Assembly (NCBI RefSeq): GCF_900142095.1
Contig: NZ_FQZP01000003.1
Span: 62,001-126,000 of the forward strand
DNA length: 64,000 bases
Direction: 5' to 3'
Origin: Thermoclostridium caenicola
GTDB lineage: Bacteria > Bacillota > Clostridia > DSM-8532
The notes beneath the pieces are model-generated. The model worked only from the letters and a program-made list of their open reading frames with translations, did no database searches and was not told where the DNA came from. Within the stretch, counting starts at the first letter, position 1. Every line of letters begins with the position of its first letter. A program made the position numbers and the translations under genes. This document shows, in pieces, positions 16,631 to 58,747 of this stretch.

Positions 16631-16732
16631 TGTCATTGCGAGCGAACAAAGCGAGCGTGGCAATCTCTTCATACCGCGGTTGGCTATGAAAGTGACTGAG
16701 ATTGCTTCGTCACTACGCTCCTCGCAATGACA
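16631..16732. repeat. Dispersed repeat, inverted pair
   Basis: The left arm starts TGTCATTGCGAGCG and ends GGCAATCTC; the right arm starts GAGATTGCTTCGTC and ends CTCGCAATGACA, an inverted copy. The two arms can form a long imperfect hairpin of about 100 bases. The preceding bases (TTTGCCTTATCGC and TACGGGCTCCCTTC) recur near 18400-18452, so the repeat is part of a larger composite. The short open frames across it are best explained as repeat sequence, not genes. Confidence 0.85.
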
Positions 16733-16877
16733 CAATGGTCATAGCCCAGCGGAGCCATATCCTGGATGTCATTAGGTGCGAAGCACAGTGAACCGCGGCA
16801 ATCTTTAAAAACCGGGTGGATTACAGCGGACAGCAGGATAATAGCAAAGCAAAACTGAAAAAACAGGAAATCAAGTA
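16733..16877. other. Non-coding stretch between repeat and serpin promoter
   Basis: About 145 bases with no ribosome binding site or recognisable gene. It may include further decayed repeat sequence. Confidence 0.4.
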
Positions 16878-16908
16878 AACCGAAGGATGCCATTCGCCGT
16901 CTAATCGG
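16878..16908 (+). promoter_or_regulatory. Putative ECF-type promoter of the serpin gene
   Basis: AACC at 16878-16881 is followed by exactly 16 bases and then CGTCTAATCGG (CGTC at 16898-16901). The AAC-type -35 and CGTC-type -10 with 16-17 base spacing are typical of ECF sigma promoters. The same layout with an identical 13-mer GCCGTCTAATCGG stands before the alpha-2-macroglobulin-like gene (54756-54788, minus). The predicted transcript start leaves a normal leader of about 38 bases with GGAGGG in it. Confidence 0.65.
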
Positions 16909-16946: not shown

Positions 16947-18215
16947 ATGAATATTTGGGCGCGGGTTTCCCGCAGCAGGAGCATAAAACCGGTTCTGGTT
17001 GCCGGGCTGCTTATAGCATGCCTGCTTACGGGCTGTGCACGTGCTAAGAAGTCAGATTCCGCATTTCAGCCATCCGATGTGACCTCTGTCCCGATGGGCG
17101 ATCCCTTTGTCCAGGATATCAACCGTCTGGGTATTAACGCTCTTAAGCTGGTCAACCAGGACGAAGCAGGCGGCGGGAACCTGATCCTGTCACCAATAAG
17201 CCTTGCCACAGCGCTTTCGGTTCTCAGCAACGGTGCCGCAGGGGCTACCCTGGAGCAGATCAACGGGATCGTCAATAGCCGGGGACTGTCCCAGAATGAG
17301 CATAACAACAGATACAGGGACCTGATCAGCAGTTTTTACAACAGGAAGGACATGGTGATACTTCCGGCCAACTCCCTGTGGATCAAAAGGAATTATCCAT
17401 TTAAGGAGAGCTTTGCTGAGCTGGCCAAAGCCTGGTATGACGCCGATGTATTCTCGCTCAACGATAAGGCTTCCTCAGCCGTCAACGAGGTGAACCGATG
17501 GGTATCGGACAGGACCAAGGGTTTGATCACCGATCCGCTCAGCGAGATCCATCCTCTGACCGTGATGCTCCTGGTCAATACCCTGTACTTCCGGGGAACC
17601 TGGGAGAATCCGTTTGATGACAGCTTTACCAGGAAAGAAGACTTTACGTTGAGTACAGGCGAAACGGTGAAGGTTGATATGATGAACAGCCGGCTGATGG
17701 TGCCCTTCCATGATGCCGGGGATTTGAAGGCGGCAAAGCTGTATTACAGGGGCGGAGTATCCATGCTCTTTTTGCGGCCTGAGGAGAATGTCAACGATCT
17801 TTTGTCGGATCTGACGGCGGAAAAGCTTTTTGAAATCAACAGCCATCTCGCCATCCATACGACCGACCTGAAGGTGCCCAGGCTGGATTTTGGTTATAAG
17901 TCCGAGATGAGCGACTGCCTGAAAGCCTTGGGGATGGTGGATGCCTTTACGGATGGGGTGGCCGACTTCAGCCGGATGGTTGACGGCAAAAAGCCTTCTG
18001 TGAGCCGTGTCCTTCATGAATGCCGGCTCAAACTGGATGAGGAAGGCACTGAGGCGGCTGCCGTCACGGCCATCGCGGTTACGGCTACCAGCGCGATGCC
18101 CGAACCGGAGCAAATCGTGGATTTTTACCTGGATAAGCCCTTTGTGTTCGCCATCGTGGATGAACGGACCGGAGCCGTGCTGTTCCTTGGGAAGGTTGAA
18201 AATCCGCTTGGATAA
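16947..18215 (+). CDS. Serpin, predicted lipoprotein
   Basis: Serine protease inhibitor anchored outside the cell. 422 residues from the ATG with GGAGGG 8 bases upstream. The signal peptide ends in the lipobox LLTGC (Cys30). The serpin fold is clear from NLILSPISLATALSVLSNGA, NTLYFRGTWENPF and the C-terminal FYLDKPFVFAIVDERTGAVLFLGKV. The hinge EEGTEAAAVTA (residues 365-375) is of the inhibitory type; by hinge counting P1-P1' is Thr381-Ser382, suggesting an elastase- or subtilisin-like target. It has no dockerin, unlike some Clostridial serpins. It is monocistronic, flanked by dispersed repeats, with the putative ECF promoter upstream. Confidence 0.95.
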   Translation: MNIWARVSRSRSIKPVLVAGLLIACLLTGCARAKKSDSAFQPSDVTSVPMGDPFVQDINRLGINALKLVNQDEAGGGNLILSPISLATALSVLSNGAAGATLEQINGIVNSRGLSQNEHNNRYRDLISSFYNRKDMVILPANSLWIKRNYPFKESFAELAKAWYDADVFSLNDKASSAVNEVNRWVSDRTKGLITDPLSEIHPLTVMLLVNTLYFRGTWENPFDDSFTRKEDFTLSTGETVKVDMMNSRLMVPFHDAGDLKAAKLYYRGGVSMLFLRPEENVNDLLSDLTAEKLFEINSHLAIHTTDLKVPRLDFGYKSEMSDCLKALGMVDAFTDGVADFSRMVDGKKPSVSRVLHECRLKLDEEGTEAAAVTAIAVTATSAMPEPEQIVDFYLDKPFVFAIVDERTGAVLFLGKVENPLG

Positions 18216-29160: not shown

Positions 29161-29210
29161 GGGAGTAAAACATCAGACAATTGGCCCGGCAGACCGTATT
29201 ATACACGGTT

Positions 29211-29747
29211 ATGGAAAAAGAGATGCAGGATTATGAGGTTGTCAGGCTCTGCCTTGAGGGCAGGACGGAACATTTTGAAACATTGGTTGACCGGTACCAG
29301 AAGCTTGTTTACTCACTGGCCTGGAGCTACCTGAAGGATGCGCAGCTTGCCGAAGACGCCGCCCAGGAAGCTTTTGCAAAGGCCTATAAGCACCTGGCAT
29401 CCTATAATCCCGCATTCAGGTTTTCAACCTGGATTGCCCGCATAACAGCCAATACCTGCACGGATTTTCTGAGAAAAAGAAAGGAATTCTGCCCGATTGA
29501 GGATGCCTTTGAGGTGACCGATCCGGAAGGTACGCCTGAGCAGCATGTGATAGGAAGGGAAACGAAGGACAGGCTAGAAGGCCTTATCAACCGCCTGGAT
29601 CCCAAGTACAGGCAGCCCCTGATGCTTTACCACCTGGCAGGGATGAAATATGAGGAAATCGCCGAATATTTGAAGGTTCCCATGAGCATCGTAAAAAATC
29701 GGATATTCCGCGCAAGGAAAATGCTGAGACAGGCTATGGAGGACTGA
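29211..29747 (+). CDS. ECF RNA polymerase sigma factor
   Basis: About 178 residues. Region 2 covers about 12-80 (LVYSLAWSYLKDAQLAEDAAQEAFAKA with FSTWIARITANTCTDFLRK), and region 4 covers about 115-170 with the HTH KYEEIAEYLKVPMSIVKNRIFRARK. The start is uncertain: ATG at 29211, ATG at 29223, or TTG at 29181; none has a strong ribosome binding site. The downstream gene is a zinc-binding anti-sigma factor, a standard pair. It is separate from the tethered ECF factor at 55098-58544, which has no partner anti-sigma gene. Confidence 0.92.
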   Translation: MEKEMQDYEVVRLCLEGRTEHFETLVDRYQKLVYSLAWSYLKDAQLAEDAAQEAFAKAYKHLASYNPAFRFSTWIARITANTCTDFLRKRKEFCPIEDAFEVTDPEGTPEQHVIGRETKDRLEGLINRLDPKYRQPLMLYHLAGMKYEEIAEYLKVPMSIVKNRIFRARKMLRQAMED

Positions 29748-29751
29748 CGGT

Positions 29752-30300
29752 ATGAAGGATTGCATAGACCAGAAAACATTCAGCCGGTATCTTGAAGATT
29801 CGCTGGAGCCTGAAGTGCTGACAAGACTTGAAGCCCATTGCAGGATTTGTGAGCGTTGCGCCGGTGAACTGGCGGGGTGGAAGGTCCTGAAGGAAAAGCT
29901 TCGGGAAGCGGCCGATGTCGAGGTGCCCGACGGCCTCAAGGAAAAAGTGATGTCCCGCATTGCTGGGGAAAAGATTCTTCCGGCCCGAAGAGAAGGGGGA
30001 GCCAGGCGAGGTCTTGCCGCTGCCATTGTTTTTGCGGCCGCCCTGTACTACCTCTTCCGACCCGTTTTGCGCCCGATCCTGTTCAGCCTGATCTCCGCCG
30101 GTCTTAAGTTCCTGTCGGCTCTGTGGTATAACGCCTTAAGCGCTGTTGGCATGGATCCCGCAATTCTGATCAGGCTCTTTGGGAAAATCATGGCGGGATT
30201 TGGCAGTTTATTGCCTGTGTTCATGGCCGCTACGTTCCTGATGGTCACAGGGCTGGTTGTGCTGATCATAAGGGGAAGGGCGGCGCGGCAGCCGGGCTGA
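29752..30300 (+). CDS. ZAS-type membrane anti-sigma factor
   Basis: 182 residues. The zinc anti-sigma motif HCRICERC (His-x3-Cys-x2-Cys, about 29-36) is intact in the N-terminal cytoplasmic domain. Three hydrophobic segments follow (about 87-105, 107-130 and 150-172) with no large external domain, so a membrane or internal signal is more likely than a secreted ligand. GGAGG near the end of the sigma gene lies 9 bases before the ATG. It would hold the upstream ECF sigma factor inactive until released. Confidence 0.88.
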   Translation: MKDCIDQKTFSRYLEDSLEPEVLTRLEAHCRICERCAGELAGWKVLKEKLREAADVEVPDGLKEKVMSRIAGEKILPARREGGARRGLAAAIVFAAALYYLFRPVLRPILFSLISAGLKFLSALWYNALSAVGMDPAILIRLFGKIMAGFGSLLPVFMAATFLMVTGLVVLIIRGRAARQPG

Positions 30301-43406: not shown

Positions 43407-44747
43407 TTGGACAAGAGAAAAACGAGGTCGGACAACCGAAAGAGACAGCAAGCGAACAACCGGCGGATGGTGGTGCTACTGGCCGGTCTGACACTGGCAG
43501 TGGGCATCATCTTCGCCTTTTCCTATTTCTTCGGGAGAAACGGAAACGGGCCGGAGATGCCAACACCCAGTCCGTCCGCACCTATCCCTACCGATACGGG
43601 CACATCCACGCCTGAACCCACTCCGGCCGAAACGCCTACTGAGGAGCCCACTCCCACACCAACACCCGAACCGGGTCCCGATGAAGACCGGAGGAGTACA
43701 CGGAAGAATGATGTGAAGGTCAAGGCGCTGTACTTAAATTCCACAAGCGTCAGAAACAAACTGGACCATTATATCGACCTGGCCAACAGGACTGAGATCA
43801 ATGCCTTCGTTATCGACATCAAGCGGGACGACGGGGTCATCACCTACGATTCCAATATACCCGAAGTAAACGCCGCCAACGGGGATACGCCCGGCTTTGA
43901 TATCCGGGAGGTTACCAAAAAGCTTCATGACAACGGAATAATCGTCATTGCCCGAATGGTGACCTTCAAGGATACCACCATCACCAAATACAAGCCGGAA
44001 CTGGCCATAAAAACCGTTGACGGCGGAATACTGGAGATCAAGGAATCGGGTGGCTTCCGTTCGCGATGGCTGGATCCCACCAACAAGGAAACCTGGGACT
44101 ACATCCTCAGCATTGCCAAAGAAGCGGTGGAATTCGGGTTTGACGAGATCCAGTTCGACTATATCCGCTTTCCTGAAACCAGCCTGTACAAGAACTATGT
44201 GATAAACCTCCAGGAAGGCCAGGAGCGCCACCAGGTCATCGAGGAGTTCATCCGATATATCCGCCATAATCTGCCCCCTGAAACCGTTATCAGCGCCGAT
44301 ATCTTCGGCATGCCCCTCATCAGTGCAAAGGATTACGGCGAGATAGGGCAAACCCTGGAATCCATTGGCTGGAGCCTGGACTATATCTGTCCCATGATTT
44401 ATCCGTCCCATTTTGCCAACAATTCCAATGGCACCATGGGGAACGGGGTCGGCCAGACCATCAACGGCATCAAGTTTACCCACCCCGATCTGAAGCCCTA
44501 TGAGGTGGTCTACAATACGCTCATCGTCGGGAAGAGCAGGATTGAAAAGGTGGAAGGGTACAACCTAAAAATGCGGCCGTATATCCAGGGGTTTACGGCG
44601 TCCTACCTGCCTTCAGGATATTACAAGAATTATGGGGTGGACGAATACCGCGCCCAGATCAAGGCAGTCTATGATGCGGGGTACGATGAATGGATCTTCT
44701 GGAATGCCCGGAATGAATATGTGGAGGCGGCCTTCCTGCCCGAGTAG
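43407..44747 (+). CDS. Membrane-anchored putative glycoside hydrolase (DUF4015-type)
   Basis: 446 residues from TTG after GGGGGAG. A basic N-terminus and one membrane helix (about 22-42) precede a Thr/Pro/Glu-rich linker (about 50-93), then a TIM-barrel-like domain outside the membrane. Conserved segments are VKALYLNSTSVRNKLDHYI, NAFVIDIKRDDGVITYDS, GFDEIQFDYIRFPE and DYICPMIYPSHF, with the acidic pairs typical of GH families. This family is annotated as a putative glycoside hydrolase of unknown substrate. It starts 24 bases after spoVAE, so it may be read with the spore operon and act in cortex or coat remodelling; that part is inference. Confidence 0.85.
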   Translation: MDKRKTRSDNRKRQQANNRRMVVLLAGLTLAVGIIFAFSYFFGRNGNGPEMPTPSPSAPIPTDTGTSTPEPTPAETPTEEPTPTPTPEPGPDEDRRSTRKNDVKVKALYLNSTSVRNKLDHYIDLANRTEINAFVIDIKRDDGVITYDSNIPEVNAANGDTPGFDIREVTKKLHDNGIIVIARMVTFKDTTITKYKPELAIKTVDGGILEIKESGGFRSRWLDPTNKETWDYILSIAKEAVEFGFDEIQFDYIRFPETSLYKNYVINLQEGQERHQVIEEFIRYIRHNLPPETVISADIFGMPLISAKDYGEIGQTLESIGWSLDYICPMIYPSHFANNSNGTMGNGVGQTINGIKFTHPDLKPYEVVYNTLIVGKSRIEKVEGYNLKMRPYIQGFTASYLPSGYYKNYGVDEYRAQIKAVYDAGYDEWIFWNARNEYVEAAFLPE

Positions 44748-49724: not shown

Positions 49725-52700
49725 CTAGGGGAGTATTTTTACCATGGTGTCCTTAATAACAGTAAGGCTGGTTTTCACCATGGAACCTTGCGCCGTTGTG
49801 CCTTCCGCGATGAATTCGCCGGGACCGGCAACCCTCGCGTAATAGGTCAAAGGTTTATAATGCTCTATCTTATCTCTCTTTCCAACCACAAAGGTTACCT
49901 TCTGCCCGTCAATGTTCCGGTAATACCATCCATAATCCCGGGTGATACCGTAGGACCAGGGGTTGGAAACAGGTTTAAGCCCGGAGGGCGCATAATCGGT
50001 AATCTCGTAGACATTGTCCATGGCCTCATCCTTGATGGTGTATTCGATCTGAACCTTCACGATGTCATTGGGGCCGAAGGTGGTGGTTTCCTCGCCGGTC
50101 AGCGCGTTAAAGTACTTACGCGTGATGATCACGTTGCCGTCGTTTTCTCCATGCTGTGCCAATGGTACCGTATAGATGGACAGCACGGCGGCCTTGCCGT
50201 TCACCCGGGTTACCCGGAATTCGCCTGCCTTTACCGACGGGATCCGGATGCATTCTGTTTGTCCCATTTCAAGCTTTACCTGGTGGCTCTTGCCATTATA
50301 GGTGTATTCAAATTCCACGGTGTCGCCTTCAGCGGCCTTCAGCCTTTCAGTCAGGTAGATGAGGCGCTCGACGCCCGTATAGACATCCCTGGAGTATCTG
50401 CTGACCACATAGTCATACATCCTGTCGGATTCTTCCATGCCCAGGCTGGCGGCGAAGGCGGCCAGGAGGGCGGTCTGCTCCAGGGAAGCGTCCATATCGC
50501 CATCTTTTACCCTGACGCGGATATAGGGATCCATGCGCTCAAGATGGGGCTGGATACGGGACGTGTAGATCTCACGGGCTGTGCTGGTCTCGCCCAGCAT
50601 CTGGTAAGCCATGCCTACAAGCATGTAGTCGGTCAGCGACAGGTTCTCGGTGTTCCTGGCCAGCTCAAGCTCCGAAAGAACCGGCTCACCCAGGGCCGCA
50701 AGGCCATACAGGGCAGGCGCGTTAATGGTATGGTCGGTCAACAGGGCATTGTAGAAATACATCTTCAGGGATGTTGTATCGGTCACTTCACCGAGCCATG
50801 GGGCCAGCAGGGCCGACATCCTGATATCACTGGAGGCATAGGGCAGGATGCCGTAGCCGCCGTCCTCGTTCCTGTAGCTGGCTGCATCCGGATCGCTCAA
50901 ATCGTAATAGAATTCCTCGCTGCTTACCAGTTCTTTCAGCAGCTTCCGTGCCTGGTAGGCTGTGAGCTTCTGGTCGATCCTGTGCCCATAACCCCATGCC
51001 AGGCTGTGGAGTTCGCGAATGATCCGGCCACGTCCCGTATCGGTGATGATGAGCGTTGTCAGCCCGCTGCCACCGGCATCGATTTTTACCCCCGGAACCA
51101 GTTCCTTATAGGATGCCGTTTCCATGGTGCGGTAGGAATCATAAACCTGGATGGTCCTCCGGATACCGTCGGCCAGTCCGCTTTTGCTCCTTGCATAGAT
51201 CTCCAGGTTGTAGGTGCCTTCCGGCAACCTGGGAAGGGGAATGTTCACCCGCTCGAAGGCTTTTGCCGAGGCAGTTGCCGTGAAATCGCCCAACTCCCTG
51301 CACCGTATCTCAAAGTCAACGGTTTCGCCTTCCTTCAGTTCCTGGCCGTATGCCGTGACACCGATATAGGGTTTGTCGCCCGAAAGGTAGGTCAGGCTCA
51401 TGGCGTCATTGATGAAGAAGGGCATGGAAACACTGGCCTGGGTAACTTCCGAGCCGGCATGCAGGTCAACCGATATGGCGGCGGCTGCCAGCCTGAAAGA
51501 GGTAACACTGTCGGGCAGGGTGAAGGTCAGGGTTCCTCTGCCATTCTCGTCCAACTGGATGGTCCTGAAGCAGGCCGTATCCCGGAAATCCGAGCGGACA
51601 ACCACGCCGTCGGAAATGGACGCGCCTGCGGCCGTTTCGGGTTGGGGAACCGGCGCCGCTTTAAGGGTCATGTTTGCCTTCTCCGCTGCCGAGTCAACCG
51701 CCACTACACCCGCTGCCTGGTTGATGCCTGCCCGCACAGGATACATGGGGCTGTTCAGCCGGCTTGTGCTGTATCGGATGATGCCGCTGCCTATCCAGGT
51801 ATAAAGCCGGCTCAGGGGATCGATGGACTGGTCGGAGAGCTGAAGCAACGCCTCATCAACCAGGGAGATGTTCACCATGGCAGCAACGGGCCTGCCGTCG
51901 GAATCGGTTGCCGTAACGGTTACGGTGCAGGCCTCGCCGGGTCTGTAGCTGTCCCTGTCGGTCTTGACATCCAGCCAGAGCCGCTTCTCCTCATAATCAT
52001 AGGAAACCCAGCATTCTGAGTGAATATAGCTTGTGCCGGTAAACATCACGCCTTCCACGAAATAATTGGGTGAAAGGTCGGCATCAAAGGGCCTGCTGTA
52101 TACCGGCTGGTCCTTTATTTCTGCGCCGATTATGCCGTTCCTGGCTTCCACGAACAGGGTGCGATAGCCGGTTACAGGCTCCTCACCCTTATAGAACTGC
52201 ACATGGACGGGTTCCCCGGAGCGGTAGCCCCCCTTGTCAGCCCTGAGATGATAATAATCGTCGATGGGCGGGTAATAGCGCCAGGAACGGTCATAGAGGC
52301 TAATTTCGTATTTCAGTTCACGGTCTTTCTGGTCCTTCGAGGTTATCACGGCCGTGTAATAACCCTCCTGCACCTTATTCACCGGGAATGCAAAGCGCGC
52401 CTGGCCATTGGCATCGGTGGTAAGCGTCCGGCTCGCAACAGGGGTCTTTCTCTCCCGGTATTCGTACCGCTTGCGGACCACCTTGTTGATGAAGTCGTAA
52501 TCCTCGCCGATCTCCACCTTGTCCCAGGTGATATGGTAAACCTGTACATCGGCTGTATGCCCGGGAATTATCCGGCCCAGGTGGTTGTCGTTGGACGGGT
52601 CTTCATCGTTGAGGGTGTCCAGTTCCACCTGGTGGGCCGTGATGGATACCGATGCGGTTCCATCCTTTATCTCGCCGCCCGTCACCAGTTCCGCATGGTT

Positions 52701-54716
52701 CGCGAACACCCGGAAATCATGGTACTGATAGATCTCCCCGATTTCAGGAAGCTTTGTGGAAGCGCTGATGCCAAAATAGATTCCCCCCTGCATGCCCTGG
52801 GCATATTGGGGAGTGTATTCCACGGTCAGAACACCGTTCCGGTCGGTGATCCCCTCGCCGGACTGACTGGCGCTGTATCCGCTGATGCTGTATCTTATCG
52901 GAACATTGGACACGGGGGTACCGTCAAAGAAGGAAGCCTTGATGGTGAACGTGATCTTCTCCCCGGCAAATACCGCCTTCTTATCGGAGGTAATGGTCAA
53001 CTGATAGGAGGGCTTCACATAGTTTTCCACCCGGATATAGCTGGAGGACAGGATTGTATCCCCGGATTTGACCACCAGGCTGTAGGATCCGGGGTCCAGG
53101 ACGGGAAGCCGGAGTTCGCCGCTGAAGAAACCGTCCTTCACGTCCAGGGTCAGGGTTTCCAGCGGTTTCCCCATGATGAAGGGCAGAAAGCACCGGACAA
53201 AGCTGTCATACATGGGTCGGATATATCCACCCTCGGACAGCTCAATGGTCACCTTGTCGGGGGAGGTGTTATCAACCCGGCTTTTCACGAATCCCCAGAA
53301 CTGGACCAGGTCGTCGGGCTTGTAGAGGGTGCGGTCGGTCTGAAGATAACGCCAGTACAGGCTCGGACTGTCGTCGTTATAGGGCGTATAGAGATAACCG
53401 GCATTGAGGAGGGTTACCAGGCCATTGGCGGTCGTGATCCGATAAAAATCCATCCTTGCCGGATCTTTGCCCGCCGAGGTTCCTTCAAGACGGGCAAGGC
53501 CTTTGCTGTCGGTTTTTGTGGTTCTTCCGGTGGCCAAATCTTCTATGGTCGCCGAAACGGTGGCCTTCCCGGTGACCACGTTGTTCACCCAGAAAAGGCC
53601 GCTGTTCTTGTCCTCTATAAAGAAGGCCGATGTGTCCGATGACTGGATGAAAGCCTGTGCCGACAGATCCCCGCTGGACAGCTCGATGATATAGAAACCA
53701 TGGGGGAGGCTCTCGGGCAGCATCATGTACCAGGTACCCGGGGAATCCGCGCTGAAGCTTTGGGTGAATTCCATTACCTTATCCAGGGAGGAAACATCGG
53801 TCCGGACTTTGCTGTATGAATAATATGCCCAGGAAGGCACCTTCTCCCTTTCCCTGATGGCTTTGATGAGGGCGTTTTCATCACGGAAGCGGTAAACGGC
53901 TGCCTTTACATCGATTTTCTGCTGGTCCCGCATGCCCGGCAGATAGAGGTAGAAAGGAATGACGGGCGATTCCCGGGTTGAAAAGTCGAACCAGATATCG
54001 CCGATTCCCAGGCTGCCGGGGTAGGGATCCGCGGTATGGGTGCTGTCCTGCGCGGTTTCAAAAGAGAAGGTATAGTCTTCCGCGAGGGTTTGCACCCCTT
54101 TGGCGGCCTTGAGACCCTTTTTGACCGTAACCGTGTAAATGGTCCCCGGTTCCAGCTTCTTCGGGACGAAGCTGCGAACATAACCGTGCGACTCAAACCG
54201 GCCTTCCACCCTTGGGGAAATCTCGAAATACTTCTCGATATCCTCCACGTCCTGGTAGGTGAAGTAGAGTTCTATGCCCGTGTCAACAGGCACGCCGGTT
54301 GCCATGTCCTGGGGCAGGCTGCCGACGACAGCCAGTTCCCGCGGGGTCTGGAAGGCAAAACTGACGGTCGATCCGTCGGGCGTCCGGATATCGATCACAT
54401 AAAGGCTGTTTTTCTCCAGTTTTTCGGAGGGCTTTACCAAAAACCTCCCATCGGGCAGCGCGGAGATTTCAGGTGGGGTCTGCCCGCGTATGGTCAGGTT
54501 GTCTTTCAGGTAGTCCAATGTGACAGGAAGCTGGGATGTGAGATAAAAAGCTGTATCCAGAGCGATGCCTGAATCGTCCTGCTTCGATGGCGTGACTGAA
54601 AAGCCACCCCTGAAGGTGTCCGCACTGGCCTCAACTGTTCCCAGTGGATTGCCAATCCATAGGGCTGAAACGCTTAATGCCAGGATAAGGAAAATGGCCA
54701 GCAGCTTGTCCCGCAT
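49725..54716 (-). CDS. Secreted alpha-2-macroglobulin-like protein without thioester
   Basis: 1663 residues with a signal peptide (1-30, ending EASA). Multiple macroglobulin-like beta domains fill residues 35-900; the A2M core follows from about 1065 (VTSFRLAAAAISVD). The helical thioester domain is present from about 1230, but where YGCxEQ is expected it reads WGYGHRIDQK, with His1245 in place of the Cys. Covalent protease trapping by thioester is therefore not possible; a non-covalent trap or structural role remains. It is preceded by AGGAGGTAGAGTGCT and an ECF-type promoter shared with the serpin. The tethered sigma gene lies 381 bases upstream. Confidence 0.92.
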   Translation of the reverse strand: MRDKLLAIFLILALSVSALWIGNPLGTVEASADTFRGGFSVTPSKQDDSGIALDTAFYLTSQLPVTLDYLKDNLTIRGQTPPEISALPDGRFLVKPSEKLEKNSLYVIDIRTPDGSTVSFAFQTPRELAVVGSLPQDMATGVPVDTGIELYFTYQDVEDIEKYFEISPRVEGRFESHGYVRSFVPKKLEPGTIYTVTVKKGLKAAKGVQTLAEDYTFSFETAQDSTHTADPYPGSLGIGDIWFDFSTRESPVIPFYLYLPGMRDQQKIDVKAAVYRFRDENALIKAIREREKVPSWAYYSYSKVRTDVSSLDKVMEFTQSFSADSPGTWYMMLPESLPHGFYIIELSSGDLSAQAFIQSSDTSAFFIEDKNSGLFWVNNVVTGKATVSATIEDLATGRTTKTDSKGLARLEGTSAGKDPARMDFYRITTANGLVTLLNAGYLYTPYNDDSPSLYWRYLQTDRTLYKPDDLVQFWGFVKSRVDNTSPDKVTIELSEGGYIRPMYDSFVRCFLPFIMGKPLETLTLDVKDGFFSGELRLPVLDPGSYSLVVKSGDTILSSSYIRVENYVKPSYQLTITSDKKAVFAGEKITFTIKASFFDGTPVSNVPIRYSISGYSASQSGEGITDRNGVLTVEYTPQYAQGMQGGIYFGISASTKLPEIGEIYQYHDFRVFANHAELVTGGEIKDGTASVSITAHQVELDTLNDEDPSNDNHLGRIIPGHTADVQVYHITWDKVEIGEDYDFINKVVRKRYEYRERKTPVASRTLTTDANGQARFAFPVNKVQEGYYTAVITSKDQKDRELKYEISLYDRSWRYYPPIDDYYHLRADKGGYRSGEPVHVQFYKGEEPVTGYRTLFVEARNGIIGAEIKDQPVYSRPFDADLSPNYFVEGVMFTGTSYIHSECWVSYDYEEKRLWLDVKTDRDSYRPGEACTVTVTATDSDGRPVAAMVNISLVDEALLQLSDQSIDPLSRLYTWIGSGIIRYSTSRLNSPMYPVRAGINQAAGVVAVDSAAEKANMTLKAAPVPQPETAAGASISDGVVVRSDFRDTACFRTIQLDENGRGTLTFTLPDSVTSFRLAAAAISVDLHAGSEVTQASVSMPFFINDAMSLTYLSGDKPYIGVTAYGQELKEGETVDFEIRCRELGDFTATASAKAFERVNIPLPRLPEGTYNLEIYARSKSGLADGIRRTIQVYDSYRTMETASYKELVPGVKIDAGGSGLTTLIITDTGRGRIIRELHSLAWGYGHRIDQKLTAYQARKLLKELVSSEEFYYDLSDPDAASYRNEDGGYGILPYASSDIRMSALLAPWLGEVTDTTSLKMYFYNALLTDHTINAPALYGLAALGEPVLSELELARNTENLSLTDYMLVGMAYQMLGETSTAREIYTSRIQPHLERMDPYIRVRVKDGDMDASLEQTALLAAFAASLGMEESDRMYDYVVSRYSRDVYTGVERLIYLTERLKAAEGDTVEFEYTYNGKSHQVKLEMGQTECIRIPSVKAGEFRVTRVNGKAAVLSIYTVPLAQHGENDGNVIITRKYFNALTGEETTTFGPNDIVKVQIEYTIKDEAMDNVYEITDYAPSGLKPVSNPWSYGITRDYGWYYRNIDGQKVTFVVGKRDKIEHYKPLTYYARVAGPGEFIAEGTTAQGSMVKTSLTVIKDTMVKILP

Positions 54717-54755
54717 AGCACTCTACCTCCTAAAAAATCAAATAGACATATCCCA

Positions 54756-54788
54756 TACCGATTAGACGGCCTAAGGCAGCTTATGGTT
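54756..54788 (-). promoter_or_regulatory. Putative ECF-type promoter of the alpha-2-macroglobulin-like gene
   Basis: On the minus strand GAACC (54785-54789), 16 bases, then CGTCTAATCGG (CGTC at 54768-54765). It matches the serpin promoter (16878-16908) in the -35 AACC, the 16-base spacing and the 13-mer GCCGTCTAATCGG, and lies about the same distance before the start codon (48 versus 45 bases). Confidence 0.65.
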
Positions 54789-54843
54789 CGCCCGATTGCC
54801 CAATATTTTCAGTTCTATACCAACTCAGTCCTTTCAGAGCAGG

Positions 54844-55023
54844 TGTCACTGCGAGTGAAGCATCAGCGGGGCGTGGCAATCTCTTTACTCCCAGTTTGAC
54901 CACGGAAGGGAGTGAGATTGCTTCGTCGGCTATTGCCTCCTCGCAATGACCCAAAAGGCCATGGCCCATGGGATGCATGCCCGACATGTCATTGTGAGCG
55001 CGTGAAACGAGCGTGGCGATCTC
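54844..55023. repeat. Dispersed repeat, three arms
   Basis: Arm 1 (54844-54884) starts TGTCACTGCGAG and ends GGCAATCTC. Arm 2 (54913-54950) is inverted, GAGATTGCTTCGTC to CGCAATGAC. Arm 3 (54987-55023) is direct again, TGTCATTGTGAGCG to GGCGATCTC. This is the largest copy and separates the sigma fusion gene from the macroglobulin-like gene. Confidence 0.85.
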
Positions 55024-55097
55024 CTTCCAATCATTTGTCTCTAACCTCTCCGTTATATAAGAAGGACGATCCCCGAAACGGGAACCGTCCCACTGGT

Positions 55098-58000
55098 TTA
55101 ATCTGATAACCCGTCAAACACATCGGATGCGTGGAGCCCGGTGCCGCCGATATACCGCGAATCGTAGACTTCCAGCCAGCCGAAGCGGCCATCGTTTGTC
55201 TGGAACAGGCACCACCTCTGGTTGTCGCTGCCCACAAAGCGGACCGTTTCATTCCGGTTCAGCACAAAGGATACTTCGTTGCTGCCGGGGGACAGGAGGA
55301 AGGGCAGCGATTCAATCTTCAGCCTTAAGGGGCTGGCGTTCCTGTATCCTATCTTTTCGTAGAAGGCGCTGGGCGACTCCACCAGCTTATGCTGCGTGTT
55401 CAGGCGGTACTCCCGGGTATAGTACCAGGTTTCCAGAATGCTGCTGCGGGCCCTGGCGCGCACGATGCCGTCGCCTTTCACGGCGTCGGTGTTCCCGCAC
55501 AGACCCGGTACTTTGCCCATATTGACCAGCCTTTGGCCGTCATAATAGAAGAATGTGCTTGAATAGTCGCTGCCGGAGCCGTGTTCCTCAATAACAATCT
55601 CATAGAAGGCATCCGACGGGTTGATGTCCACCAGCCTGAACTCGGACTGGATCCCGGAGCCCTGGCCTTCCGCCTTGCTTTGGTTGACGGTCAGGGTGTA
55701 CCGCCTGCCGTCGGTGGTGAAACGGATCCTGTCTTCGTTGCCGTCGCCATTGAGATCCAGGTAGAGGCCCGCGGGTTCGGATGTATCGGCGTTTCCGCCC
55801 GGGCTTTCGCCATAACCTCCGCCGGAGCCACCGCCAGAGCCTCCGGGCAGGTAGATATCCTGCTCCCTTACCCAGCCGGCCGTACCGCTGGGAAGCCTGA
55901 CATGAAGGAACCCGTTCTCGGCTTTGCCGGTCAGGGTGACAAACACATCCGTACCGATGCTGGACATGAAGTTGTTGAAATCGGTTGCAGGTTCGGAACC
56001 GAAGTCCGGCATGCTGTATGCCGTGCTCCCTTTCCTGAGGTATGCCTGGTTGTAATAGGCGCTGCCCAGATCCTGAGTGAAGCTGTCGTTGCTGATCCAG
56101 CCTGTAATGCCAAAATTGGTGTCGATGGTGTCGGGTATGACATAGCTCTTTTGATCTCCCCGGACAATGATGCGTATCAGGTTGCCTTTGCTCAGGGTTA
56201 TCCTGGACAGCTTGACCTTGTCGGCGGTTATCACGCCTACCGGCAGGTTGCTGCGATTATAGGAATAGATGTTTTCAGCCTTAATCCAGAAAGCGTTGCG
56301 GGTATCGTAATAGTTGATCATGCCCGATACCTTCTGGGCCAGGCACCAGCCGTTGACCACACGGCTGTTGTAGATGATGATTTCGTTCTGCCTGATTTCG
56401 CCTATGTCGGTGTAATTGTCCCCGGGACCGTTCTTCACCTTGCAGGTTTTGATCACAAAGGACTCCACGCGGCTGCCGGTAGCCTTTTCGGTCTCATAGA
56501 TTTTGACCGTGGTGTCCTGTGTGCCTGGGGCAGGGGAAGCGTTGTTCGGGGCGGCGGGATCATCGTTGTTCAGGACAGGTTCCCTGTCAACCGAACGGAA
56601 CACCTCGGTGACCGCGCCTGTCAGAACATTGATGGTATAGATGGAAAACTCCCCGGCCTTGGGATCCGTTTCATCAATCATGCGCACATAGGCGATGTTT
56701 TCCTCGTCGACCCAATTGGTCTGATAGGGCTTCAGTTCGCTGTAACCGGGGATGCGGGGAGCGGTCACACTGCTTTCCGAAACAATGAGGAAGGATCCCT
56801 CATTGTCAAACATGACGCGGGCGCCTGAAGCAGTGGTCCGGCACCAGGGCAGCAATTCCTGCCGCAGTTCCCGGCTCGTATTGAAGACGCTGATCTTCCC
56901 TGTTCTCAGGTTCAGGGTTCCGGAATTGCCGTTACGCATTTTGAAGACGAGATAATTGCCTGAAAGGCGGTAATCAGTGATATAGGCATCCTGGCTGCCG
57001 CCGTTTCCGGCTCCGGAATCCGGAACGATGGCGGTATCCTGATCATTGGCTGTCACATGCTTCATGATCACGCCGTTGAGAACATACCAGATAGTGCCGG
57101 AATCGGGGTTGATGTAGAAGGGTTCATGCTGCACCAGTTGGGTTTTCCATGCCGCATCATCAGCCGATGCGAACATGGCCTGATCGCCCGAGAAGACGCC
57201 AATGCCGCCGTTATTGGTGACAAAAAGCTTCGCTGCCGCAACAGCGGATTCAATTTTCATGAGCTGCAGGGCCTGCATGTCCAGCAGGAAAACAGGGCCG
57301 GCGCCGGTACTGCCGGCATAGGCCAGGTAATTGCCAAGCGGTGACCAGGCATATACCACCTGGTCCGGGCCCATTTCAGACAACCGGTAGTAACTGCCGT
57401 CTGACAGGTTGAAAAGATAGGTACCTGCACCGGCTTCTGTTCCCGGAATGCCGACTACCATGAAAGCTCCTGTCGGTGCAACGCTGAACTCCGGTTCACC
57501 CTGGCCGACGGAAAGCCCGATGCTTTCCAGGTCAATCAACTGACGAAATTCATCGTTCCTGCAACTGACTATGATATGGCCGATCCGGATGATGAACTGT
57601 TCCTGATTGGCGTGGAGCACCTCCCAGGAAGTTGCGTCCATACCCGTTTCGTTGAGCCTGGCAACCAGTTCATCGCCCGACAGTAGGCCTGTAACGCTTG
57701 TAAAGGAAATGGGGGTACCGGTGTTTTCAAAGGGTGTATCGGCGAGGGCCGGTCGGTTGTCCTTGTCGAAAATGGTCATGACTGACCCCCAGAAAGGTTT
57801 GGAAACGTCCTGGACGACCAGAAGGGCGAGGAGCAGCACGCCAAGGAAGGCCGGAACCGCTATCGGCCATATTTTTCTCAGCATGACCGGGCTGGTGACG
57901 TATGCAATGAACCCGGGCTTCCGGCCGGCTTCCTTTTCTGCCATGTCCATGATGGCTTCCTCGGGGACCGTTTCACAGGGAACCTTGCGACTGATCCTCC

Positions 58001-58544
58001 CAATGAGCCGTTCCACCGCTTCTGAAAACCGGTCTTCTGAAGTCTGAACATTGCCGGCGAGAAATCCCAGCGCCCGATCCATCCGCATCCTGGCCGAACT
58101 GCCGGAAAGGCCGAACACCCGGCCGATTTCCCGCAGCGTGAGCCCGTGATCATAATGCAGGATGAGCATGGCCCGATCCTCATCATGGAGCGGATCAAGC
58201 AGGACGCCCAGGGATTTTTCTTCTTCGGATTCATCGTCGTGCCTGATCAGGTATTCGGGGATCCTGGGATGACGCATCCGGGGCTGTTTCTGCTTATCTT
58301 TTCTGAACCTGTCATAGGCCATTCTGTAAAACCAGGTGGAAAAAGCCCAACGATCATTGTACCGGTACAGATTCCGGAAGATGTCGACAAAGATGGACTG
58401 AGCCAGATCCCCGGCGCGTGAGTCCGGAACTCCCATTTTGATCAGGAATCCGTAAAGTCCGGGATAATAGGAGGTTATCAGTTCTCCGAAGGCCTGGGTT
58501 TCGCCCCTGAGAACTTTTTCCGCAAGCAGCCTGTCGTTGTTCAT
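55098..58544 (-). CDS. Membrane-tethered ECF sigma factor with large external domain
   Basis: 1148 residues in one uninterrupted frame. Residues 1-165 are a complete ECF sigma factor: region 2 (DLAQSIFVDIFRNL, FSTWFYRMAYDRFRK) and region 4 (LTLREIGRVFGLSGSSARMRM). A linker leads to one membrane helix at about 226-246. The external part has propeller-like repeats (about 340-650), SH3-like segments near 690-760, 835-900 and 1085-1130, a GGSGGGSGGG linker near 901-910, and a calcium-type LDLNGDGNED near 930. Start ATG follows AAGGAGAATGATAGC. No separate anti-sigma gene is adjacent. It probably senses a surface signal and is freed by proteolysis or acts from the membrane; its likely targets are the two ECF-type promoters seen here. 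Confidence 0.9.
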   Translation of the reverse strand: MNNDRLLAEKVLRGETQAFGELITSYYPGLYGFLIKMGVPDSRAGDLAQSIFVDIFRNLYRYNDRWAFSTWFYRMAYDRFRKDKQKQPRMRHPRIPEYLIRHDDESEEEKSLGVLLDPLHDEDRAMLILHYDHGLTLREIGRVFGLSGSSARMRMDRALGFLAGNVQTSEDRFSEAVERLIGRISRKVPCETVPEEAIMDMAEKEAGRKPGFIAYVTSPVMLRKIWPIAVPAFLGVLLLALLVVQDVSKPFWGSVMTIFDKDNRPALADTPFENTGTPISFTSVTGLLSGDELVARLNETGMDATSWEVLHANQEQFIIRIGHIIVSCRNDEFRQLIDLESIGLSVGQGEPEFSVAPTGAFMVVGIPGTEAGAGTYLFNLSDGSYYRLSEMGPDQVVYAWSPLGNYLAYAGSTGAGPVFLLDMQALQLMKIESAVAAAKLFVTNNGGIGVFSGDQAMFASADDAAWKTQLVQHEPFYINPDSGTIWYVLNGVIMKHVTANDQDTAIVPDSGAGNGGSQDAYITDYRLSGNYLVFKMRNGNSGTLNLRTGKISVFNTSRELRQELLPWCRTTASGARVMFDNEGSFLIVSESSVTAPRIPGYSELKPYQTNWVDEENIAYVRMIDETDPKAGEFSIYTINVLTGAVTEVFRSVDREPVLNNDDPAAPNNASPAPGTQDTTVKIYETEKATGSRVESFVIKTCKVKNGPGDNYTDIGEIRQNEIIIYNSRVVNGWCLAQKVSGMINYYDTRNAFWIKAENIYSYNRSNLPVGVITADKVKLSRITLSKGNLIRIIVRGDQKSYVIPDTIDTNFGITGWISNDSFTQDLGSAYYNQAYLRKGSTAYSMPDFGSEPATDFNNFMSSIGTDVFVTLTGKAENGFLHVRLPSGTAGWVREQDIYLPGGSGGGSGGGYGESPGGNADTSEPAGLYLDLNGDGNEDRIRFTTDGRRYTLTVNQSKAEGQGSGIQSEFRLVDINPSDAFYEIVIEEHGSGSDYSSTFFYYDGQRLVNMGKVPGLCGNTDAVKGDGIVRARARSSILETWYYTREYRLNTQHKLVESPSAFYEKIGYRNASPLRLKIESLPFLLSPGSNEVSFVLNRNETVRFVGSDNQRWCLFQTNDGRFGWLEVYDSRYIGGTGLHASDVFDGLSD

Positions 58545-58717: not shown

Positions 58718-58747
58718 ATTATAATATTCAGTACGGGTCCCAGACAA
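58718..58747 (-). promoter_or_regulatory. Sigma-A-type promoter of the tethered sigma gene
   Basis: On the minus strand TTGTCT, 18 bases, perfect TATAAT. The leader is about 165 bases. This suggests housekeeping transcription of the sensor. Confidence 0.6.

Follow-up and report, generated by a model that had tools for sequence, protein, structure and literature searches.

One ECF sigma factor, probably the soluble protein termed here sigma-X, is predicted from promoter sequence to switch on the genes for a macroglobulin, a serpin and an SLH-BsuPI protein in two genera of Clostridia. The first two genes lie in a 64,000-nucleotide stretch of the Thermoclostridium caenicola genome that was analysed as a whole (the window). 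An earlier note on this DNA had proposed an antiprotease regulon controlled by a tethered sigma factor, the gene of which adjoins the macroglobulin gene. The predicted regulon held up and could be extended to a third inhibitor-family gene and to promoters conserved in two genera. The proposed role of the tethered sigma factor as its controller was not supported: the promoter is found without that factor in the sister genus, and it matches the autoregulatory promoter of sigma-X. The features of the window are:

16877..16905, plus strand: ECF-type promoter of the serpin gene, AACC-N16-CGTCTAAT (motif, matrix, conservation in 6 genomes)
16947..18215, plus strand: serpin lipoprotein gene (PF00079, 4e-95; sequence, orthologues)
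29181..29747, plus strand: soluble SigW-like ECF sigma factor gene, a candidate controller judged less likely
29752..30300, plus strand: gene for the probable anti-sigma partner of the ECF at 29181 (position; matches below curated cut-offs)
49725..54716, minus strand: macroglobulin-like (A2M family) gene, secreted product of 1663 aa (Pfam)
54761..54789, minus strand: ECF-type promoter of the A2M gene, GAACC-N16-CGTCTAAT (motif, matrix, conservation in 10/10 genomes)
55098..58544, minus strand: tethered ECF sigma factor gene, 1148 aa (Pfam, split ECF/anti-sigma pairs)
56586..57974, minus strand: anti-sigma-homologous part (post-zinc-finger), tethered sigma residues 191-653 (blastp with the G115 anti-sigma factor, E 4e-25; alignment)
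57807..57872, minus strand: probable membrane helix, tethered sigma residues about 225-246 (hydrophobicity conserved in 5 orthologues)
58068..58202, minus strand: Sigma-70 region 4, tethered sigma residues about 115-159 (Pfam)
58302..58481, minus strand: Sigma-70 region 2, tethered sigma residues 22-81 (Pfam, Sigma70_r2)
58718..58747, minus strand: sigma-A-like promoter of the tethered sigma gene, TTGTCT...TATAAT (in 5/5 orthologues)

Three inhibitor-family genes and their promoter

The tethered sigma gene lies directly upstream of the macroglobulin ORF, on the same strand and 381 bp away, as the earlier note had stated. The serpin gene is found outside the interval 49725-58544 to which that note was assigned. 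The single ECF-type promoter attributed to both inhibitor genes is indeed present at each as AACC-N16-CGTCTAAT (54761-54788 and 16878-16905 when counted from AACC), and the sigma-A promoter attributed to the sensor gene was recovered in sigma-A-like form. A dispersed repeat, GTCATTGCGAG..., present in both orientations, lies a short way upstream of the serpin promoter (16632-16731) and of the A2M promoter (54845-54998); the window has seven matches to it, where 1.2 would be expected.

The macroglobulin carries the MG2, A2M_BRD (bait region) and A2M domains, all over the Pfam cut-off, and so has the MG/A2M domains and bait region by which the alpha-2-macroglobulin family is defined; among PDB structures it gave a weak match to one alpha-2-macroglobulin chain. 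It shares these domains with the bacterial alpha-2-macroglobulins exemplified by the E. coli structure (PMC4498604), but differs from them in having no conserved CxEQ and in sitting behind an ECF promoter. The CxEQ thioester motif was not found in the window protein, which places it outside the thioester-containing class, and it is not otherwise conserved among the orthologues, a single CLEQ being present in G001; any protease trapping would thus proceed without covalent thioester capture. The serpin has a lipobox (LLTGC) and, like other bacterial serpins, a full serpin domain and an inhibitory-type hinge (EEGTEAAAVTA), which agrees with the EEGTEAAA-type consensus and predicts an inhibitory serpin; it differs in being a lipoprotein under a shared ECF promoter. 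The product of the third candidate gene is secreted and combines an SLH domain with a BsuPI domain (E 1.8e-26, above the Pfam cut-off). BsuPI is the family of B. subtilis IPI, an inhibitor of an intracellular subtilisin (PMC3901451). The domain is common to both proteins, but IPI is intracellular whereas the SLH-BsuPI protein, a predicted inhibitor, is exported with an SLH domain. The serpin and BsuPI genes co-occur, and in the sister genus both are present only in G011 and G020.

When all sites of the T. caenicola genome were left out of the matrix, the A2M and serpin sites still ranked as the best two in the window (23.7 and 25.4 bits), both above the best score from 100 mononucleotide shuffles (21.6 bits). 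With up to two mismatches allowed, the motif occurs in the window at chance level with no enrichment; its significance therefore rests on position and conservation. The whole genome was searched with the exact pattern only, matrix scoring being confined to the window and to regions upstream of ECF genes. The pattern AACC-N14-17-CGTCTAAT has three exact matches in the 2.89 Mb assembly: before the serpin, the A2M and the SLH-BsuPI genes. An argument from the count itself was rejected, since about 1.4 exact matches are expected by chance (our own estimate, assuming uniform base composition), and it is position and conservation that carry the case. That all exact matches should fall just upstream of inhibitor-family genes by chance is very unlikely.

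Conservation was followed in two genera, that of the window (G000-G004) and a sister genus (G005, G011, G016, G020 and G022). These genomes are related, so that orthologous sites are not independent, and nearly all genomes used in the analysis are draft assemblies. The A2M promoter, AACC-N15/16-CGTCTAAT, is present in all ten, in most cases some 70-77 bases ahead of the start codon. The BsuPI site is kept in 7/7 genomes and the serpin site in six genomes of the two genera, with GAACT replacing GAACC in two. In most of the other genera sampled, A2M has a related ECF-type site, typically GGAACTTATTG...CGTCAAA, and none of these genera has the tethered sigma. The motif in relatives also precedes genes for a DUF4015 hydrolase-like protein, a DUF4349 lipoprotein and an SLH-GH18 protein. 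The DUF4015 gene near A2M in the window (43407-44747) is without it; those with it are in three sister-genus genomes (L094:10505-11857, L095:2204-3559 and L097:15308-16645). In G003, G004, G016 and G011 (L077, L076, L070 and L093), a response regulator gene of the OmpR/PhoB type also has the same ECF motif, at a distance of 195-365 bp upstream.

A probable sigma factor for the promoter

From 22 inhibitor promoters a matrix was derived, and with it the 300 bp preceding each of about 60 ECF sigma genes of these genomes were scored. Ten sigma-X operons rank first, at 16.9-23.4 bits, and the next best gene scores 8.9 bits. The regions upstream of the tethered sigma (-2.8 bits) and of the 29181 ECF (-2.2 bits) have no such site. 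The sigma-X gene (G000 contig 22, 7304-7816) adjoins gltX and is preceded by TGAACC-N15/16-CGTCAAAT, or CGTCATAT in G016. The gene after it encodes a membrane protein without a recognised Pfam domain, the probable anti-sigma factor. With a membrane anti-sigma gene in its operon and an ECF promoter upstream, sigma-X has the expected features of an autoregulated canonical ECF sigma factor. Canonical ECF sigma factors with a membrane anti-sigma factor are those of the B. subtilis SigW, SigX, SigM and SigV type. Sigma-X resembles these in its two-gene operon with its own ECF-type promoter, but differs in an anti-sigma factor without a recognised Pfam domain and in a predicted output that includes three protease-inhibitor families.

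Nine of these ten genomes have an orthologue of sigma-X, at 61-85% identity. The exception is G004, a MAG with a completeness of about 90%, in which sigma-X was not found but the promoters of A2M, serpin and BsuPI are all kept. A 49% relative in a third genus (G007; L266, G007:C361) also lies beside gltX and has the same upstream site, at 1441. The -10 elements do not agree fully, the autoregulatory sites of sigma-X reading CGTCAAAT and the A2M sites CGTCTAAT; the only inhibitor site that reads CGTCAAAT is that of the G020 serpin. An ECF-type promoter precedes A2M even in genera that lack a clear sigma-X orthologue, which implies that another ECF can serve it there.

This last observation, and the many ECF sigma factors in the genome, would also suit control of the regulon by another ECF or by several that overlap, a reading we consider unlikely. 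One candidate, the sigma-X paralogue on contig 13 of G000 (L148:1121-1663, G000:C13; about 40% identical to sigma-X), has an upstream site containing CGTCTAAT that scores 8.8 bits, but it was found in G000 only. The SigW-like ECF at 29181, the first candidate to be considered, was set aside: none of the sister-genus ECFs examined is orthologous to it, and no site that matches lies upstream of its gene. The widely shared ECF group of contig 5 is preceded by a different motif, CTCAAC...CGTATTA. Somewhat more plausible, though still the lesser possibility, is a general envelope-stress promoter of which the antiproteases form only part of a wider cell-envelope regulon, a reading compatible with control by sigma-X. 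The response regulator, DUF4015, DUF4349 and SLH-GH18 genes that follow the motif in relatives point this way. Against it, all three exact matches in the T. caenicola genome precede inhibitor-family genes and are conserved in the genus, and the joint presence of BsuPI and serpin in the sister genus is confined to the two genomes named above.

The tethered sigma factor

The tethered protein consists of sigma regions 2 and 4, with no region 3, as in ECF (group IV) sigma factors, followed by a hydrophobic stretch and a large external part with an SH3_3 match near the C-terminus. Only the sigma part matches solved structures, and the AlphaFold model is of low confidence (mean pLDDT 37). The full-length protein was found only in the five members of the window's genus, and its non-sigma part has no full-length match beyond the genus among 391 genomes of the class. 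Relatives of the C-terminal part occur as separate genes (L105:6303-7691 in G005, L273, L275 and others), one of them with YARHG and SH3 domains.

In another family of the class, G115 and G347 have split ECF and anti-sigma pairs. The ECF of these pairs matches residues 1-158 of the tethered protein, and the anti-sigma factor covers residues 191-653 (G115) or 274-652 (G347). The G115 anti-sigma factor has a zf-HC2 domain, and in the alignment none of the five fusions retains the zinc-finger stretch that the split anti-sigma factors have. Because the split pairs cover both parts and this stretch is missing, the tethered protein is, as judged by alignment, an ECF/anti-sigma fusion minus the zinc-finger inhibitory domain. 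ECF48, ECF52 and ECF53 are sigma-anti-sigma fusions of Actinobacteria, e.g. SCO4117, and IutY belongs to ECF243; activation by proteolysis was proposed for such fusions and shown for IutY (PMC8999054). The tethered sigma has the same plan, an ECF fused C-terminally to an anti-sigma-derived membrane part and an external domain, and its C-terminal membrane anti-sigma homology places it with fusions of this kind. Lacking the zinc-finger anti-sigma domain that ECF48, ECF52 and ECF53 proper require, it would fall outside those groups. It also differs from these fusions and IutY in its occurrence in Clostridia, in an external part some 900 residues long and in having as relatives separate ECF/anti-sigma pairs of Clostridia.

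The soluble proteins most closely related to it number nine, the two split pairs and seven others from the family, and all have (C)GTTAC-N17/18-GTATAA or GTATTA upstream, which suggests by homology that the specificity of the tethered sigma differs; it probably recognises a promoter other than those of the inhibitors. ECF motifs this similar can overlap, and the relatives' motif can also be read as a sigma-A promoter. A CGTTAC-N17-GTATAA site before a divIC/ftsB-like gene (L222:1501-1529, G000:C6:13071-13099; orthologues L223, L225 and L226) came into question as a target of the tethered sigma, but can be read just as well as a sigma-A promoter, TTACAA-N17-TATAAT.

A model in which damage or protease, sensed by the external domain, releases or activates the tethered sigma, and this factor then reads the promoters of A2M and the serpin itself, appears quite improbable. 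The tethered sigma gene is directly upstream of A2M in 5/5 members of the genus, but the neighbouring genes are also syntenic there, which makes the adjacency weak evidence. The sigma domain of the tethered protein is better conserved among orthologues than the linker (pairwise identity 0.69-0.79 vs about 0.54), and the -10 elements CGTATAA and CGTCTAA are similar enough for recognition to overlap. The tethered sigma may also act on the inhibitor promoters in its own genus. Against sole control by it stand the different motif of its nearest soluble relatives and an upstream region that scores below zero with the inhibitor matrix. Furthermore, the earlier note had named genomes with the promoter but no tethered sigma as the case that would speak against such control, and all five sister-genus genomes (G005, G011, G016, G020 and G022) are of this kind; the A2M -10 element is identical in genomes with and without the tethered sigma. 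A one-protein protease alarm, in which foreign proteases cleave the external part and the freed sigma domain, alone or with sigma-X, induces the three inhibitors, is a speculative variant that we regard as very doubtful.

Proposed course and significance

If sigma-X is the controller, the membrane anti-sigma factor encoded by the next gene would keep it inactive, and free sigma-X would switch on its own operon from TGAACC-N15/16-CGTCAAAT. Envelope stress, perhaps proteolysis, may inactivate the anti-sigma factor and release sigma-X. The sigma-X-RNA polymerase would then read the GAACC-N15/16-CGTCTAAT promoters, and the macroglobulin, serpin and BsuPI protein, exported as putative inhibitors, would protect surface proteins. 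A different ECF, fused to its anti-sigma factor and specific to the genus, makes up the tethered sigma, which probably recognises another promoter. The antiproteases may stand at the centre of a broader envelope response.

A search of the open-access literature returned no paper that combines an ECF sigma factor, an alpha-2-macroglobulin and a serpin, a search on macroglobulin with sigma factor and regulon returned nothing relevant, and little was found on the regulation of bacterial macroglobulins and serpins. Sigma-X, its anti-sigma factor and the promoter set can now be named as testable candidates. The tethered sigma and its split relatives show how an ECF/anti-sigma pair became one protein with loss of the zinc-finger inhibitory domain, a loss that raises the question of how the tethered sigma is kept off. 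That three unrelated inhibitor families share a conserved ECF promoter suggests that anaerobic Clostridia have a response dedicated to countering proteolysis.
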